From positions 1 through 64,000 of the forward strand of contig NZ_AOIM01000017.1 in NCBI RefSeq assembly GCF_000337575.1: DNA of 64,000 nucleotides, read 5' to 3'. This document shows positions 36,664 to 43,543 of the stretch, piece after piece. The first letter of the stretch is position 1; each line of letters starts with the position of its first letter. A program made the translations under genes and the position numbers. This DNA is from Natrialba hulunbeirensis JCM 10989. GTDB taxonomy: Archaea; Halobacteriota; Halobacteria; Halobacteriales; Natrialbaceae. The notes under the pieces were generated by a model. It saw only the letters and a program-made list of their open reading frames with translations, had not been told where the DNA came from and ran no database searches.

Positions 36664-36816
36664 CCGCTATTGTTTCGAATCGTAAATTCACATCGATCGA
36701 ATGCGCCGACGTGGCGCATCTCTCACGACACCCCACGACGCGTGTATACTTTTCCAACGGACGACTATACCCGACTCTCGGGCTTTATGCGGGCGCTTAT
36801 CGTGATATTGTCCGTC

Positions 36817-38019
36817 ATGCACGGATCGAGTGGGACTCGAGTACCCGAGCGGTGTGAACCCGAACGGGATACTGGGGGTGGACGGACCGACCGGAGCAAA
36901 CGAGACCACGGGAGCGGGCGGGACAGGTGGAGCGGGAGCCGTCGAGGATATCTTGCCACGGTCGGGCTCGTCTCGGCGGGCGTGGTGAGTGGCTGTCTCG
37001 GGCTCGGAGACGACGAATCAGACGTGCTCGGAGATCCCACGTATCGGGAGGGACGACCGGATCCGGGTGGCGTCTCCATGGAGGAGATGCCGGACCTGAA
37101 CGGGGACCTGACGATCTACTCGGGACGCAGCCAGCCGCGGATCGGCGAACTGATCGAGTACGTCGAGGCGCAGTACGACGACCTGACCATCGAGGTTCGG
37201 TACGACGATACGGCGGATCTGATCAGCACGATCGAGACGGAATCCGAGACGCCAGCGGACGTCTTCTACGGCAGCGAGACGCAGTCGATGACCCACCTCA
37301 AGGACGAGGGCTACACCGTCGAGTTGCCCGACGAGGTCGTCGAGCTGGTTGATACGGGTTCGGTCGATCCGGACGGTCACTGGACCGGTTTCACCCGCCG
37401 ATTCCGCGCGGTGGCGTACAACAGGGACGCGTACGACGCGGACGAGCTACCGGACGATATCTTCGCCTATGCGGAGGACGAACGATTCCGGGGCGATATC
37501 ATGTGGCCGCCGGACCAGGGCTCGTTCCAGGCGTTCATCACCTCGATGCGGCTGCTCCACGGCGAGGATGAGACCCGCTCGTGGATTCGGTCGATGATCG
37601 ACGACCAGGACATCGAGGCCTCGCCGGGCGGCGACAGCGCGCTGGCACAGGCCGTCGGCGACGGCGAGGTCAGCGTCGGGCTGACGAACCACTACGTCGT
37701 CCGCGACCACGGCGGCGACTCCGTCGGCCTGGCGTTTACCAGCGACGACGCAGGGGCCATGTACAACGTCACCGGCGGCACGGTGATGGCCGACAGCGAC
37801 GACACCGAGACCGCCGCGAACTTCGTCCGGCACATGCTCTCGGCGGAAGCACAGGAGTACTTCGCGACGACAACCTGGGAGTATCCCGTCATCGACGGCG
37901 TCGCCCCACTCGAGGAGCTTCCCGGCACGGACGAGTTCGAGCCACCCGAGTTCGATCTGAACGAACTCGACGACCCCGATCCGACGCTCGAACTCCTGCG
38001 CGAGGAGAACGTTCTCTGA
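36817..38019 (+). CDS. Iron(III)-type ABC transporter substrate-binding lipoprotein
   Basis: About 400 residues. After a long Arg-rich n-region come a twin-arginine motif (SRRGYLATVG) and the lipobox VSGC. The mature chain is a family 1/Fbp-like ferric-binding protein: LTIYSGRSQPRIGELIEYVE, TPADVFYGSET, FRAVAYNRDAYDADELP, and AQEYFATTTWEYPVI. The ATG 36817 start fits a TTTATG-type box at 36781-36790. It lies 38 bases upstream of a permease/ATPase, forming an uptake operon. Ferric iron is the family default; thiamine or another substrate is possible. Confidence 0.87.
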   Translation: MHGSSGTRVPERCEPERDTGGGRTDRSKRDHGSGRDRWSGSRRGYLATVGLVSAGVVSGCLGLGDDESDVLGDPTYREGRPDPGGVSMEEMPDLNGDLTIYSGRSQPRIGELIEYVEAQYDDLTIEVRYDDTADLISTIETESETPADVFYGSETQSMTHLKDEGYTVELPDEVVELVDTGSVDPDGHWTGFTRRFRAVAYNRDAYDADELPDDIFAYAEDERFRGDIMWPPDQGSFQAFITSMRLLHGEDETRSWIRSMIDDQDIEASPGGDSALAQAVGDGEVSVGLTNHYVVRDHGGDSVGLAFTSDDAGAMYNVTGGTVMADSDDTETAANFVRHMLSAEAQEYFATTTWEYPVIDGVAPLEELPGTDEFEPPEFDLNELDDPDPTLELLREENVL

Positions 38020-38057
38020 GGTGGCGGGAAACAACATCCGACGTTCCGAGTGACGAC

Positions 38058-41000
38058 ATGAGACCAGATCCATTCCGGGCGGACGACACCGTAACAGCGC
38101 CGGCGAGCGCCGAGAAAGCGCACGCGGTAGCCTCCGAGGACGGGGCCGCTGCGGGCGAGGAGTCCGGAGACGACCAGCGCTCCCGACCGTGGGGACTCAC
38201 CCTGCTGGCAGCCGCCGTCGCCGCCGTGATCGTCGTCCCCGTCGCCTGGATCGGCGTGATGGCGCTCACCGTCGATCTCGAGCGGGCGCTGTCGATCGTC
38301 TTCCGGCCGATGACGTTCGAGATCCTCACGAACACGCTCGTCCTGATCACGCTCGTCACCACCTTCTCGGTGCTCATCGGGGTGCCGCTCGCGATACTGA
38401 CGGTGCTGACGGATCTCCCATTCAGGCGGTTCTGGCTGGCCGCACTCGCGCTCCCGCTCGTGATCCCGAGTTACACCAGCGCGTACGCCTTCATCTCCAT
38501 CTGGGGACCGCACGGACTGGCCCAGTCGCTCGTCGAACCGCTCGGCATCACCTCGCTACCCGAACTCTACGGCATGCCCGGCACCGTCGCCATCCTCACG
38601 CTGTACAACTACCCATTCGTCTTCATCACCACCGTCGCGGCGCTGCGCGCGTTCGACAAGACGTACATCGACGCCGCTCGCACCCTCGAAAACAACCTAT
38701 TCGGCGTCTTTCGGGAGGTCGTCCTCCCGATGACGAAACCCGCCATCGCCGCCGGCGCGCTGCTTGCCGCCCTCGAGACGGCCGGCGACTTCGGCGTCCC
38801 CGCGATGTTGCGACTCAACGTCTTCACGCGCCAGATCTACGTCGAACACAACGCCCTCTCTCACGACTACGCCGCGATGCTCTCCCTGCACCTCGTCGCG
38901 ATCACGCTCGTCATCCTCGTCCTCGAGTACGCCGTGCGCGAGCACCGGACGATCCACGGCGGGAGTCGCGGCGGCTCGCGCTCGTACACGTTCCACCTCG
39001 GTGCCTGGAAGTGGCCGGCGCTGGCCGTCTGCGCCGCCATCGTCGGCCTCGCCGTCGTCCTCCCGGTGTCGGTGCTCCTGTGGTGGCTCGTCCGTGGTCC
39101 TGAGACCTACGTCGGCGCGTTCGGCTTCCGACTCGAGTACGCGCTGAACTCGGTGTCGGTCTCGCTGCTGGCCGCGCTCGCGGCGGTCGTGCTCGCGCTG
39201 CCGGTCGCGTACCTCTCTGCCAGATACCGCTCGCTCGCGTCGACGGTACTCGAGCGCGCGACGTACGTCGGCTTCGCCGTGCCCGGTGTCGTCATCGGAC
39301 TAAGCCTGGTCTACTTCGGATCGGCCTACGCACCGACGCTGTACCAGACGATCCCGTTGCTCGTCTTCGCGTACGTCGTGCTCTACCTGCCGCTCGCGGT
39401 CGGTGCGGCCAGGACGGCCTTTCTCTACGTCAACCCGCGATTCGTCGAGGCCGCCCGGTCGCTCGGCTGTCCGCCGCGCACGGCCTTCCGCCGGGTGACG
39501 CTCCCGCTGGTCGTCCCCGGACTCGTCGCCGGTGGTGCGCTGGTCTTCCTCCACGGGATGAAGGAGTTGCCCGCGACGCTCCTCCTCCGGCCCGCCGGGT
39601 TCGACTCGCTCGCGACGTTCATCTGGATGGCCGAGCGCAACGCCTACTACGGCTACGCGGCGGTCCCCGCGCTCGTCCTCGTCTGCGTCTCGGCGCTGGC
39701 GATCGTCGGCGTGTTGCCGGGTGACGGCACCTCACTCTGGCGGCGCGTGCGTCGCCGTATCGGGACCAAACGTATGAATCCGACAAATCAGAACGAAGAG
39801 ACGACCGAACGCGACGACACAGACCCGTTCAGCCGATCCGGTGGCCAACCCACACGGACACGGAGCGCGACCGACGGCGGAAACCCCGTTCGAGCCGACA
39901 CACCCAATCGTTCGCGATCGGACAGTGAAGGGGCGCCCGTGCTCGAACTCGAGTGCGTCACGAAATCCTACGGCGCGCGACCCGCCGTCTCGGACCTCTC
40001 GCTTTCAGTTCAGGAGGGAGAACTACTCACGTTACTCGGCCCTTCCGGCTGTGGAAAGACGACGACGCTGCGACTGATTGCCGGCCTGGTGCGACCCGAC
40101 AGCGGCACCGTTCGGATCCGTGAGAAGTCAGTCGCAGACGCCGCCGACGAGACGTTCGTCCCCTCCGAGGACCGCGACGTCGGCATCGTCTTCCAGGATT
40201 TCGCACTCTTCCCCCACAAGACGGTCGCGGAGAACGTCGCCTTCGGCCTCGGTGATCGTGATGGGGCCGGCGAGGATGGACAGCCTGCCGACGAAACCGT
40301 CGACGACCTACTCGAGTTAGTCGGGCTCAGCGACTACCGCGACCGGTTCCCGGACGAACTCTCCGGCGGGCAGAAACAGCGCATCGCGCTGGCGCGGTCA
40401 CTGGCTCCGGAACCGGACGTGTTATTGCTCGACGAACCGCTGTCGAACCTCGACGCCGGCCTCCGCGTTCGGATGCGCGAAACCGTTTCGGAGATACTCG
40501 ATCGGGTCGACGTGACGGCGGTCTGGGTGACCCACGACCAGACCGAGGCGCTCTCGGTCGGTGATCGGACTGCCGTGATGATCGACGGGGAGATTGCTCA
40601 GGCAGATTCCCCGCGAGCGCTGTTTATGCGCCCCGAATCGCGGGCTGTCGCCGACTTTCTGGGACAGGCGAGCTACCTCCCCGGACGCCAGAACGGCACC
40701 GGGGTCGTCGAAACGCCGATCGGAACGCTCGACGGAGACCGAATAGCACTGCAGTCCGGCGCTGAACGGGGCGGATATACGGATCGAGAGCAGCCACAGG
40801 AGCACAACGACAGTGGCAACGGTAGTGACAACGACGCCAGCAACAACAACGTTGCCAACGAAAGCACCTCCCTCGACCTCGACCTCCTCCTCCGCCCCGA
40901 CGACATCTCCATCACCGACAGCACATCGGACAGCGCATCCGACAGCACACCCGACATCGCTGACGGCCGAATCGTCCACCGCCAGTTCACCGGCTCGACG

Positions 41001-41195
41001 GTCCGCTACCGGGTGGTACTCGAGTCCACGTCCGGGCTGGAAAATACACAGTCAGTTGGCCAAAGTGACGAGGATAACGCAGGTGGTGCGCCGGTACTCG
41101 AGTGTCGCTGCTCACACGAGACGTGGTACGAGGTCGGAACGCCGGTGTCGGTGTCGATTACGGCGAGTCATGCGGTGCCGGCGTTTCCACTGTAG
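38058..41195 (+). CDS. Fe(III)-type ABC permease fused in frame to its ATPase
   Basis: A 1045-residue protein. Residues 1-572 form an FbpB/SfuB-type double permease (two EAA-loop modules: DKTYIDAARTLENNLFGVF and NPRFVEAARSLGCPPRTAF; about 12 helices). Residues 573-1045 form an FbpC/PotA-type ATPase: GPSGCGKTTTL, Q-loop FQDFALFPHKT, ELSGGQKQRIALARSL, VLLLDEPLSNLD. Normally these are two genes. The junction reads on through an in-frame ATG at 39774 (MNPTNQ), the likely ancestral ATPase start, and no stop separates them. The ATPase C-terminal regulatory part has Asn/Ser/Asp-rich inserts. A 1-base assembly error at the junction is possible. Confidence 0.85.
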   Translation: MRPDPFRADDTVTAPASAEKAHAVASEDGAAAGEESGDDQRSRPWGLTLLAAAVAAVIVVPVAWIGVMALTVDLERALSIVFRPMTFEILTNTLVLITLVTTFSVLIGVPLAILTVLTDLPFRRFWLAALALPLVIPSYTSAYAFISIWGPHGLAQSLVEPLGITSLPELYGMPGTVAILTLYNYPFVFITTVAALRAFDKTYIDAARTLENNLFGVFREVVLPMTKPAIAAGALLAALETAGDFGVPAMLRLNVFTRQIYVEHNALSHDYAAMLSLHLVAITLVILVLEYAVREHRTIHGGSRGGSRSYTFHLGAWKWPALAVCAAIVGLAVVLPVSVLLWWLVRGPETYVGAFGFRLEYALNSVSVSLLAALAAVVLALPVAYLSARYRSLASTVLERATYVGFAVPGVVIGLSLVYFGSAYAPTLYQTIPLLVFAYVVLYLPLAVGAARTAFLYVNPRFVEAARSLGCPPRTAFRRVTLPLVVPGLVAGGALVFLHGMKELPATLLLRPAGFDSLATFIWMAERNAYYGYAAVPALVLVCVSALAIVGVLPGDGTSLWRRVRRRIGTKRMNPTNQNEETTERDDTDPFSRSGGQPTRTRSATDGGNPVRADTPNRSRSDSEGAPVLELECVTKSYGARPAVSDLSLSVQEGELLTLLGPSGCGKTTTLRLIAGLVRPDSGTVRIREKSVADAADETFVPSEDRDVGIVFQDFALFPHKTVAENVAFGLGDRDGAGEDGQPADETVDDLLELVGLSDYRDRFPDELSGGQKQRIALARSLAPEPDVLLLDEPLSNLDAGLRVRMRETVSEILDRVDVTAVWVTHDQTEALSVGDRTAVMIDGEIAQADSPRALFMRPESRAVADFLGQASYLPGRQNGTGVVETPIGTLDGDRIALQSGAERGGYTDREQPQEHNDSGNGSDNDASNNNVANESTSLDLDLLLRPDDISITDSTSDSASDSTPDIADGRIVHRQFTGSTVRYRVVLESTSGLENTQSVGQSDEDNAGGAPVLECRCSHETWYEVGTPVSVSITASHAVPAFPL

Positions 41196-41264: not shown

Positions 41265-41558
41265 TCAGTCGGTCTCCGAGACCTCCGGCTCGGTCTGGTC
41301 CGCCTGCAACACGAACGTCCGCTCGGGCGGCGGCGCGAGGCGTAGCTCCACGGCCGCCGTCAACCGGTAGTACTTCCGATTCCCACGCATGTACCAGTCG
41401 ACCAGGCCGGCCTCCTCGAGCGTCGAGAGGTGATGAACTGCCGTCTTGCCGTCCATTCCGACCGCCTCCGTCAGTTCCGAGACGTACTTCGGCTCACGGG
41501 ACAGTTCGCGCAGGATCTCGAGTCTGGTCCCGTTGCCCAGCGCCTCGATGAGTGACAT
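41265..41558 (-). CDS. ArsR-type winged-helix regulator
   Basis: A 97-residue DNA-binding protein from ATG 41558: SLIEALGNGTRLEILRELSREPKYVSELTEAVG, then KTAVHHLSTLEEAGLVDWYM (recognition helix and wing) and a short C-terminal strand. No clear metal-binding cysteines, so the signal is unknown. It converges on the end of the Fe-type operon, 70 bases away, and diverges from the amphi-Trp gene. Confidence 0.88.
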   Translation of the reverse strand: MSLIEALGNGTRLEILRELSREPKYVSELTEAVGMDGKTAVHHLSTLEEAGLVDWYMRGNRKYYRLTAAVELRLAPPPERTFVLQADQTEPEVSETD

Positions 41559-41685: not shown

Positions 41686-41994
41686 ATGAGTGACCGGGTC
41701 AACGTACCGGACGACAGCGAGCGAACACAGCGGACGATCACGGACGGCTTCTTCGAACGCGAGGTCTACCTCTCCCGCCAGGAAACCGCCACCTTCCTCC
41801 GGGACCTCGCAGATCAGCTCGAAGCCGACACGAACGTCACCGTCGCCGGCTCAGAGTGGGAGATTCCCTTCGAGTACCGCGAACCGATCGAGGTGGAGAT
41901 CGAGTTCACGAAACAGCGCGAGCGCGAACTCGAAATCGAACTCGAGTTCAGCGAGGCAACCGACGGCGGCGGGTCGGGACTGTCGGTGCGGTGA
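41686..41994 (+). CDS. Amphi-Trp domain protein
   Basis: A 102-residue protein with the haloarchaeal amphi-Trp domain: FEREVYLSRQETATFLRDLADQL followed by SEWEIPFEYREPIEVEIEF, a Trp- and Glu-rich beta region that ends in an ELEIELEF strand. Function unknown. The family is common and conserved in haloarchaea. Confidence 0.88.
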   Translation: MSDRVNVPDDSERTQRTITDGFFEREVYLSRQETATFLRDLADQLEADTNVTVAGSEWEIPFEYREPIEVEIEFTKQRERELEIELEFSEATDGGGSGLSVR

Positions 41995-42012: not shown

Positions 42013-43449
42013 TCAGGCACGCCGGCTCTCGAGTACACCGCCCTGAACGAGCGCCGCGCGGAGCCGTTGCCAGTCGTCGGGTGTGTGCCACCCCCAGCCG
42101 TGTTTCCGGACACCGTCGCTCCGGGTGAACCGATCGGTCGCGAGTCGAAGCGTTCGTTCGATTCGATCACGGGATTGCGCTTCAGCGACGCCGTCTCCGG
42201 CTTTCGTCGCCTGGTCAGCAATCACCGTCGCAACCGACGACGGCGAGCGCTGCACCCGCCCCCAACTGGCCGTCACCGCCGCAAGAAACGCCCGAACCTG
42301 AGCCTGGGTCGTGGGATCAGCGAGTCCCGCACGGCTGGCAACCAGCGCCGGCCCGTACACCGGATACTGTTCCGCGATCGAAATCACGTCGACGGCCGCG
42401 CCGTCGCGCTCGAGTCGCGACGCATCCGCCGCCACACCCGTAACCGCGTCAACGTCACCGGACTCGAGTGCAGTGCGTTCCTCGCCAGCCAGTTCGACGA
42501 CGTCGACCGCATCCCGGACTCCCGCCTGGGAAAGCAAGAGCTGGCCGAGAAGGCCGGTCTCTGAGGCAGGCGGCATGCCAAGTCGACGGTCACGAAGCTG
42601 GTCGAGACGCTCGAACGGCTCGCCGAACGCGGACCGGGTCGTGTAGAGGACGACGGGTGAGCGTGGGAGAAGGACTGCAACTGGCACGACATCGCGGCCA
42701 GCGGCGCGCTCGCACAGCACCGTTGCTGCGCCTGCGACAGCGAGGTCCGTTTTCTCGTCCTCGGCGACCGTTCGGACGGCCGCACTCGAGCCGGCGCAGG
42801 CGTGGAACTCGAACTCGAGTTCGAGTCCAGGTTCAGATTCGGATCCGGTCGGACGACCGGGTGTATCTGGCTCGCCGTCAGCAGCCGCAACCGGACCGAA
42901 CAACGCCCCGTGGAACCCGTTCGGATGCCAGTTGAGTGCGACACGCACCTGATCTGGGGGTTTGTCCCGGCGGCCCTGGTCGGAACAAGTGGAAGGATCA
43001 GGGAGGAGTGATAGCTGGGGTCGGTCCCGGCTCGAGTCCGAGCCGATCGGCGCCCCGTCCCCGTTCCTGTACCCGTCGTCGTCGAACCGCGCTACCTGCC
43101 GGAGCAATCGGTGGGCGTGCTCGTCGGCAACCTGCCGAGCGGTAGTCGTGAGTGAATCCACCGCGTACCACGCGTTCGGCGGCCGTCCCGGCGAGGAGGT
43201 CTGGACAGTCGTTTGCTCGACGAAGCCGCGCTTCTCGAGTCGGTCGAGACTCGTCCGGGCGGCGTTCTGGCTCAGACTCGTTCCGATGTGGATCGCGGTT
43301 AACGTCGCCGTGCGGTCGAGGTCGGTCTCCCGAATCCGACACAGCAGGTACGCGAGAACGCGGCCGGCGTCCTCGCCAAGGCCCGCCGCGAGCCGTGTGA
43401 TGAGCGGCTCGTCCGCGTCCGTGAGCACCGGGAACGTTCGCCTGTCCAT
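42013..43449 (-). CDS. Helix-turn-helix regulator fused to a THI5/SsuA-like ligand-binding domain
   Basis: A 478-residue cytoplasmic protein from ATG 43449. Residues about 10-100 are a winged helix (LAYLLCRIRETDLDRTATLTAI, SQNAARTSLDRLEKRGFVEQ). A variable acidic linker leads into a periplasmic-binding-protein-like domain: VRVALNWHPNGFHGALF, VLCERAAGRDVVPVAVLLPR, VDVISIAEQYPVYGPALVASR, which resembles NMT1/THI5 thiamine-precursor binding proteins. There is no signal peptide, so the domain faces the cytoplasm and probably senses a small ligand, perhaps a thiamine precursor. That ligand is inference. There is no operon partner, and its targets are unknown. Confidence 0.8.
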   Translation of the reverse strand: MDRRTFPVLTDADEPLITRLAAGLGEDAGRVLAYLLCRIRETDLDRTATLTAIHIGTSLSQNAARTSLDRLEKRGFVEQTTVQTSSPGRPPNAWYAVDSLTTTARQVADEHAHRLLRQVARFDDDGYRNGDGAPIGSDSSRDRPQLSLLPDPSTCSDQGRRDKPPDQVRVALNWHPNGFHGALFGPVAAADGEPDTPGRPTGSESEPGLELEFEFHACAGSSAAVRTVAEDEKTDLAVAGAATVLCERAAGRDVVPVAVLLPRSPVVLYTTRSAFGEPFERLDQLRDRRLGMPPASETGLLGQLLLSQAGVRDAVDVVELAGEERTALESGDVDAVTGVAADASRLERDGAAVDVISIAEQYPVYGPALVASRAGLADPTTQAQVRAFLAAVTASWGRVQRSPSSVATVIADQATKAGDGVAEAQSRDRIERTLRLATDRFTRSDGVRKHGWGWHTPDDWQRLRAALVQGGVLESRRA

Positions 43450-43543
43450 GATGTGGGAAGATGAGTGCCGAACTACCACGGCGGGGCGCACACAGTCGGA
43501 GCCGCCGATTCCGTCAGATCGCCGTGAGTCCGACCTGAGTCGC

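Follow-up and report, generated by a model that had tools for sequence, protein, structure and literature searches.

Public records label as an "ABC transporter substrate-binding protein" a haloarchaeal protein that carries a winged helix and has no signal peptide. One such gene lies in the window—the whole stretch of 64,000 nucleotides of Natrialba hulunbeirensis JCM 10989 analyzed here—and it raises the question of what a binding protein joined to a DNA-binding head would sense, and what it would control. The reading put forward in this article, with a probability of about 0.6 for the whole explanation, is that the protein acts as a one-component regulator on a quinoprotein-dehydrogenase/importer module and detects, in the cytoplasm, what the importer brings in. 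As a design, the union of a DNA-binding head with a cytoplasmic binding fold is already known; no description of a MarR-type winged helix combined with a ThiY/THI5-family domain was found in the open-access literature.

Architecture of the fusion protein

The ORF of this putative HTH–ThiY/THI5-like fusion regulator is located at 42013–43449 on the minus strand and encodes 478 residues plus the stop. It starts with an ATG at 43449, and its stop codon ends at 42013; a longer start is possible at a GTG 14 codons upstream of the ATG. Residues 1–120 (43090–43449, minus strand) form a MarR-type winged helix followed by a long linker helix, residues 121–167 (42949–43089, minus strand) a variable linker under weak constraint as judged by alignment and dN/dS, and residues 168–478 (42016–42948, minus strand) a cytoplasmic type-II binding-protein domain of the ThiY/THI5 family. 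The latter contains the LNWHPNGFHGALF motif (residues 172–184; 42898–42936, minus strand), which aligns with the DWYPNAVH stretch of ThiY, so that a WxPNxxH stretch is common to both proteins. An acidic low-complexity stretch specific to Natrialba (residues 188–212; 42814–42888, minus strand) replaces in the alignment the helix that follows this motif.

PF09084 (NMT1/THI5-like) matches residues 208–403 with 61.9 bits against a gathering score of 20.5 (E 1.1e-16), and all 13 aligned fusion members match it as well. Taken alone, the HTH of the window copy gives weak matches (Lrs14/MreA, about 15 bits), and MarR_2 or MarR is matched in seven of 13 orthologues (E ≤ 0.1, best 7e-5). MarR_2 scores 19.2 in the first orthologue versus a gathering score of 27 bits, with the winged helix being visible in the model. 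In an orthologue modeled with AlphaFold (pLDDT 89, pTM 0.89), a winged helix (residues 26–94) is followed by a long helix (98–121) and a complete type-II binding-protein fold (139–423). The long helix is probably the dimer-forming element.

Neither a hydrophobic nor a Tat signal is present at the N terminus of the fusion, where MDRRTFPVLTDADEPL runs into the soluble winged helix. The protein thus lacks the export signal or lipobox of a periplasmic ABC solute-binding protein; its importer partners have RR- or lipobox-like signals. An earlier note made from the DNA alone had described a winged helix joined to a periplasmic-binding-type domain without a signal peptide, and ORF, PF09084 match, orthologue model, and N terminus all confirm this description.

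The solved structures nearest to the binding domain are ThiY (FAMP-binding, 3ix1; 1.6e-14 with the orthologue profile), a thiamin-bound solute-binding protein (4nmy), and THI5 (4h65), and the fold comparison of the orthologue reaches a Z score of 29.6. Herein, SsuA, PqqT, and TauA rank behind these three. Because profile and model agree on this order, the THI5-type resemblance seen earlier was right at the family level. Sulfonate sensing, which had also been considered, is not supported: SsuA and TauA are more distant than ThiY, and the fusion scores 40.4 bits with SsuA_fam, below the NCBIfam cut-off of 163.5.

Conservation and distribution

Full-length orthologues are found in three Natrialba congeners with 84–88% identity and in other genera with about 42–55%. 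Within Natrialba, dN/dS amounts to 0.18–0.27 overall, 0.09–0.18 in the winged helix, and 0.14–0.21 in the binding core, and it is high in the linker. Full-length orthologues under such constraint mean that the ORF is not a chance reading. In the tree, all fusions fall into one clade (100/100), the sister group of which is a cytoplasmic NMT1-like family, herein type c, rather than the importer lipoproteins (99/93). Hence, single clade, conserved orthologues, and low dN/dS point to one old fusion under purifying selection. A contig scan, which for spread outside the haloarchaea relied on two peptide patterns only, returned 22 fusion loci, all haloarchaeal, and two solute-binding proteins without HTH from bacteria; within what was searched, the fusion is restricted to haloarchaea.

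Gene neighborhood

The same fusion, sought in other haloarchaea, is present there, and it is consistently linked to genes for a quinoprotein alcohol dehydrogenase and for an ABC importer. The gene order common to many haloarchaeal loci is fusion–ATPase–permease, facing a permease and a solute-binding lipoprotein, and in many loci the stop of the fusion overlaps the ATPase start of the importer by 4 bp. Further neighbors are c9 (described below), often a cupredoxin, a CDC48-type ATPase, a sodium:calcium antiporter, an amphi-Trp protein, and an ArsR-type HTH, as called with a home-made gene caller that over-extends some starts. On plasmids of Halomarina, Halococcus, and Natrinema, public annotation lists a PQQ-binding-like protein, plastocyanin, and a dehydrogenase as neighbors and names the fusion itself a "substrate-binding" or "hypothetical" protein. 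In none of the loci read was a thi gene recognized close to the fusion.

The overlap with the ATPase gene would also suit a protein that is no transcription factor. In that case, a cytoplasmic binding protein would gate the importer post-translationally, as do the NrtC/CmpC regulatory domains, which have the same fold, and the winged helix would serve as a dimerization element. However, the winged helix is among the most constrained parts of the protein, and the fusion is kept in 15 genomes without the importer lipoprotein, which makes gating the least probable of the alternatives.

In Natrialba, no importer stands beside the fusion. An amphi-Trp domain gene (41686–41994, plus strand; PF20068, 1.8e-11) comes about 20 bases after it, followed by a gene for an ArsR-type HTH of 97 residues (41265–41558, minus strand; PF01022, 1.2e-13). 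Both are recurrent neighbors—Halococcus dombrowskii and Natrinema thermotolerans also have the pair next to their fusion genes. An iron(III)-type ABC importer, consisting of a solute-binding protein and then one long permease-plus-ATPase ORF, occupies 36670–41195 (plus strand) of the window; this type is found close to the fusion in Natrialba and in genomes G007 and G027. In the latter two, genes of the other, fusion-associated importer separate the fusion from the ArsR/iron-transporter genes. The genome of the window lacks the importer that accompanies the fusion elsewhere, and its dehydrogenase is on a different contig from the fusion.

The Natrialba gene might accordingly be taken for a relic, left behind when an importer operon was lost, all the more as three of the seven genus members examined have no fusion, an acidic stretch comes after the LNWHPNGFHGALF motif, and the window strain has CTGTGTGC (43488–43495, minus strand) in place of the TATA-like CTTTATGC that precedes the fusion in congeners, with a promoter that may be weaker. 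Against this stand the low dN/dS, overall as well as in the binding core, and the continued presence of the dehydrogenase and of a trio of type-c proteins. A relic is therefore improbable.

Co-occurrence with quinoprotein dehydrogenases

The association was counted in 293 Halobacteriales genomes that are at least 90% complete. The fusion is present in 44 of them and the dehydrogenase in 57; both occur in 43, the fusion only in one, and the dehydrogenase only in 14 (Fisher p 4e-38, shared ancestry ignored). Put differently, the dehydrogenase is found in 43/44 genomes with the fusion versus 14/249 without it. The pattern spans five families, and the two genes lie less than 20 kb apart in 32 of the 43 genomes. 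In the sole fusion genome without dehydrogenase, G020, part of the fusion is deleted internally. A ThiY-like protein, either of type b (importer) or of type c (cytoplasmic), is present in all 57 dehydrogenase genomes, and two genomes without dehydrogenase have one (p 6e-59, shared ancestry ignored). In three genomes without the fusion (G139, G107, and G171), the same importer is paired with a dehydrogenase that is only about 35% identical.

Thiamine, the natural guess from domain resemblance alone and the one made in the earlier note, is corrected by this context. A sensor of HMP, FAMP, or thiamin would bind the aminopyrimidine through its ThiY-like domain and regulate uptake; ThiY, 4nmy, and THI5 are indeed the solved structures closest to the fusion domain as well as to the importer lipoprotein, and the WxPNxxH stretch is in common with ThiY. 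However, the presence of thiC does not depend on that of the fusion (33 of 44 genomes with it, 157 of 249 without it; p = 0.17), so that a thiamine link is not supported, the partners are quinoprotein dehydrogenases instead of thi genes, and haloarchaea are reported to use ThiR as their thiamine regulator (PMC12029414). A thiamine-precursor sensor is thus quite improbable, more so than a relic.

The dehydrogenase and its accompanying proteins

The dehydrogenase is a quinoprotein relative (PF01011, 1e-55; quinoprotein ethanol dehydrogenase of the PDB, 1.5e-70). Most copies contain HDxWDYD, and the vicinal cysteines of a CCD motif characterize the main subfamily and are absent from the Natrialba-type subfamily. 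According to a published motif rule, the extra aspartate marks lanthanide-type enzymes (PMC11996626); haloarchaeal copies with this DxD and without a Tat motif are located, among others, at L029:2961-4679 and L063:6769-8694. As no Tat motif was seen in the dehydrogenases, their sequences suggest cytoplasmic enzymes. An apparent frameshift in the copy of the window's own genome (L062 near 7690, contig C12) was rejected, being an assembly gap with duplicated flanks and not a mutation.

In nearly every locus read, a conserved protein of 300 residues, c9, directly precedes the dehydrogenase (L029:4686-5588, minus strand; in the genome of the window, L062:8235-9203, minus strand). It has no Pfam match, an all-helical model, and no match found among solved structures; a PqqC-like identity was hence not borne out. 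The type-c trio of this genome, i.e., three consecutive cytoplasmic NMT1-like proteins with a protein of the glyoxalase/dioxygenase family, is encoded at L022:5718-9422 (contig C39), and no ABC subunits were recognized between these genes. Tested in 60 genomes, one trio member turned up in 38, and 37 of these have the dehydrogenase as well. Instead of acting in transport, the trio could have enzymatic functions.

Proposed role and ligand

Architecture, fold model, operon position, and selection support the one-component sensor design suggested earlier, with DNA binding being predicted. Together with co-occurrence and linkage, they make it likely that the fusion regulates the quinoprotein-dehydrogenase/importer module. 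This module comprises c9 and the dehydrogenase, often a cupredoxin, and the ABC importer with its ThiY-like lipoprotein and/or the cytoplasmic NMT1-like trio. The MarR-type winged helix would bind DNA, probably as a dimer via the long helix that follows it, and the fused ThiY/THI5-family domain would most likely bind, in the cytoplasm, the compound delivered by the importer. Ligand binding would then shift the affinity for DNA and thereby set the expression of importer and dehydrogenase. In Natrialba, the importer beside the fusion would have been lost, with sensor and dehydrogenase being kept. Several observations count against this explanation: fusion domain and importer lipoprotein resemble ThiY, 4nmy, and THI5 most in sequence, the operator search found none specific to the fusion, the fusion domain groups with cytoplasmic type-c proteins and not with the importer lipoprotein, 14 dehydrogenase genomes lack the fusion, and the genome of the window lacks the importer and has its dehydrogenase on a different contig.

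The ligand is somewhat more probably the substrate of the importer than anything else. Because the fusion travels with the importer and with PQQ-type dehydrogenases and not with thiamine genes, it probably senses something that the dehydrogenases need. One importer type is paired with very divergent dehydrogenase subfamilies, which argues for a shared factor such as a cofactor rather than for one alcohol, and dehydrogenases without export signals would need PQQ in the cytoplasm. For these two reasons PQQ is the leading candidate, tentative as it is. Many PQQ-using bacteria import PQQ (PMC12124388), and the PqqE model exceeded its cut-off in none of 45 genomes. A search for PqqC gave no match, but as its positive control likewise matched nowhere, this absence carries no weight. 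The sequence similarity of both fusion domain and lipoprotein favors ThiY over PqqT; hence, regulation of the module is considered likely and PQQ as its signal only a tentative assignment. Spelled out in full, the proposal is an archaeal PQQ-sensing one-component regulator: PQQ would be imported by the ThiY-like ABC importer for dehydrogenases with a lanthanide-type DxD site and without export signals, and the winged-helix–NMT1 protein would read its cytoplasmic level. This complete scheme is slightly more doubtful than PQQ as such.

The module might instead be catabolic. An imported aromatic or heterocyclic alcohol would be oxidized by the quinoprotein dehydrogenase and an aldehyde:ferredoxin oxidoreductase, and the fusion would sense the substrate, not the cofactor. 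MarR regulators often sense catabolic substrates, and AOR, VOC, and cupin genes recur close to the dehydrogenase and NMT1-like genes. However, the same importer accompanies dehydrogenases down to 35% identity, which are expected to differ in substrate, and the accessory enzymes differ from locus to locus; a catabolic module is thus unlikely, albeit the most credible of the alternatives.

Should the regulator reading be true, it accounts for a family that recurs in haloarchaea and is publicly recorded as a transport protein, and it provides archaeal quinoprotein dehydrogenases with a regulator as well as a candidate route of cofactor uptake.

Candidate operator signals

A palindrome, TATAAACGTTTCCTAGAAACGTTTTAT (two mismatches), precedes the NMT1-like trio in the genome of the window (L022:5898) and is conserved in several genera. 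It is a possible operator of some regulator; as it is also present in G002, which has no fusion, it was not assigned to the fusion. A weaker TTAA...TTTAT dyad at the promoters of the importer solute-binding proteins may merely represent promoter elements, and the operator search found none specific to the fusion.

Comparison with known systems

With the ThiY/THI5/NMT1 family (PF09084; 3ix1, 4nmy, and 4h65), the fusion shares the fold (Z 22–30 for the orthologue) and a sequence match at the family level. Unlike these proteins, it has no signal peptide, is joined to a winged helix, and has no visible link to thi genes. NrtC and CmpC likewise place a cytoplasmic domain of the solute-binding fold beside an importer, but theirs is fused to the ATPase and not to a winged helix. 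PqqT (PDB 9b1u), with which a bacterium captures PQQ (PMC12124388), has the solute-binding fold in common (Z 21 in the orthologue comparison) and was not reached by sequence profiles of either the fusion domain or the importer lipoprotein. ThiR (PMC12029414) is also an archaeal one-component regulator; it combines an HTH with ThiN and accompanies thiamine genes, whereas the fusion has an NMT1 domain and a quinoprotein-dehydrogenase context.

The N-terminal winged helix is shared with MarR/Lrs14-type regulators, the MarR_2/MarR and Lrs14 matches being below threshold. Typical members of these groups are not known to carry a large binding-protein sensor domain. LysR-type regulators consist of a winged HTH and a cytoplasmic type-II binding-protein domain, and their overall logic is alike. 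The fusion differs from them in its ThiY/THI5-family sensor and its MarR-group head and therefore looks invented independently; if so, a winged-helix sensor was built from an ABC binding domain separately from LysR.
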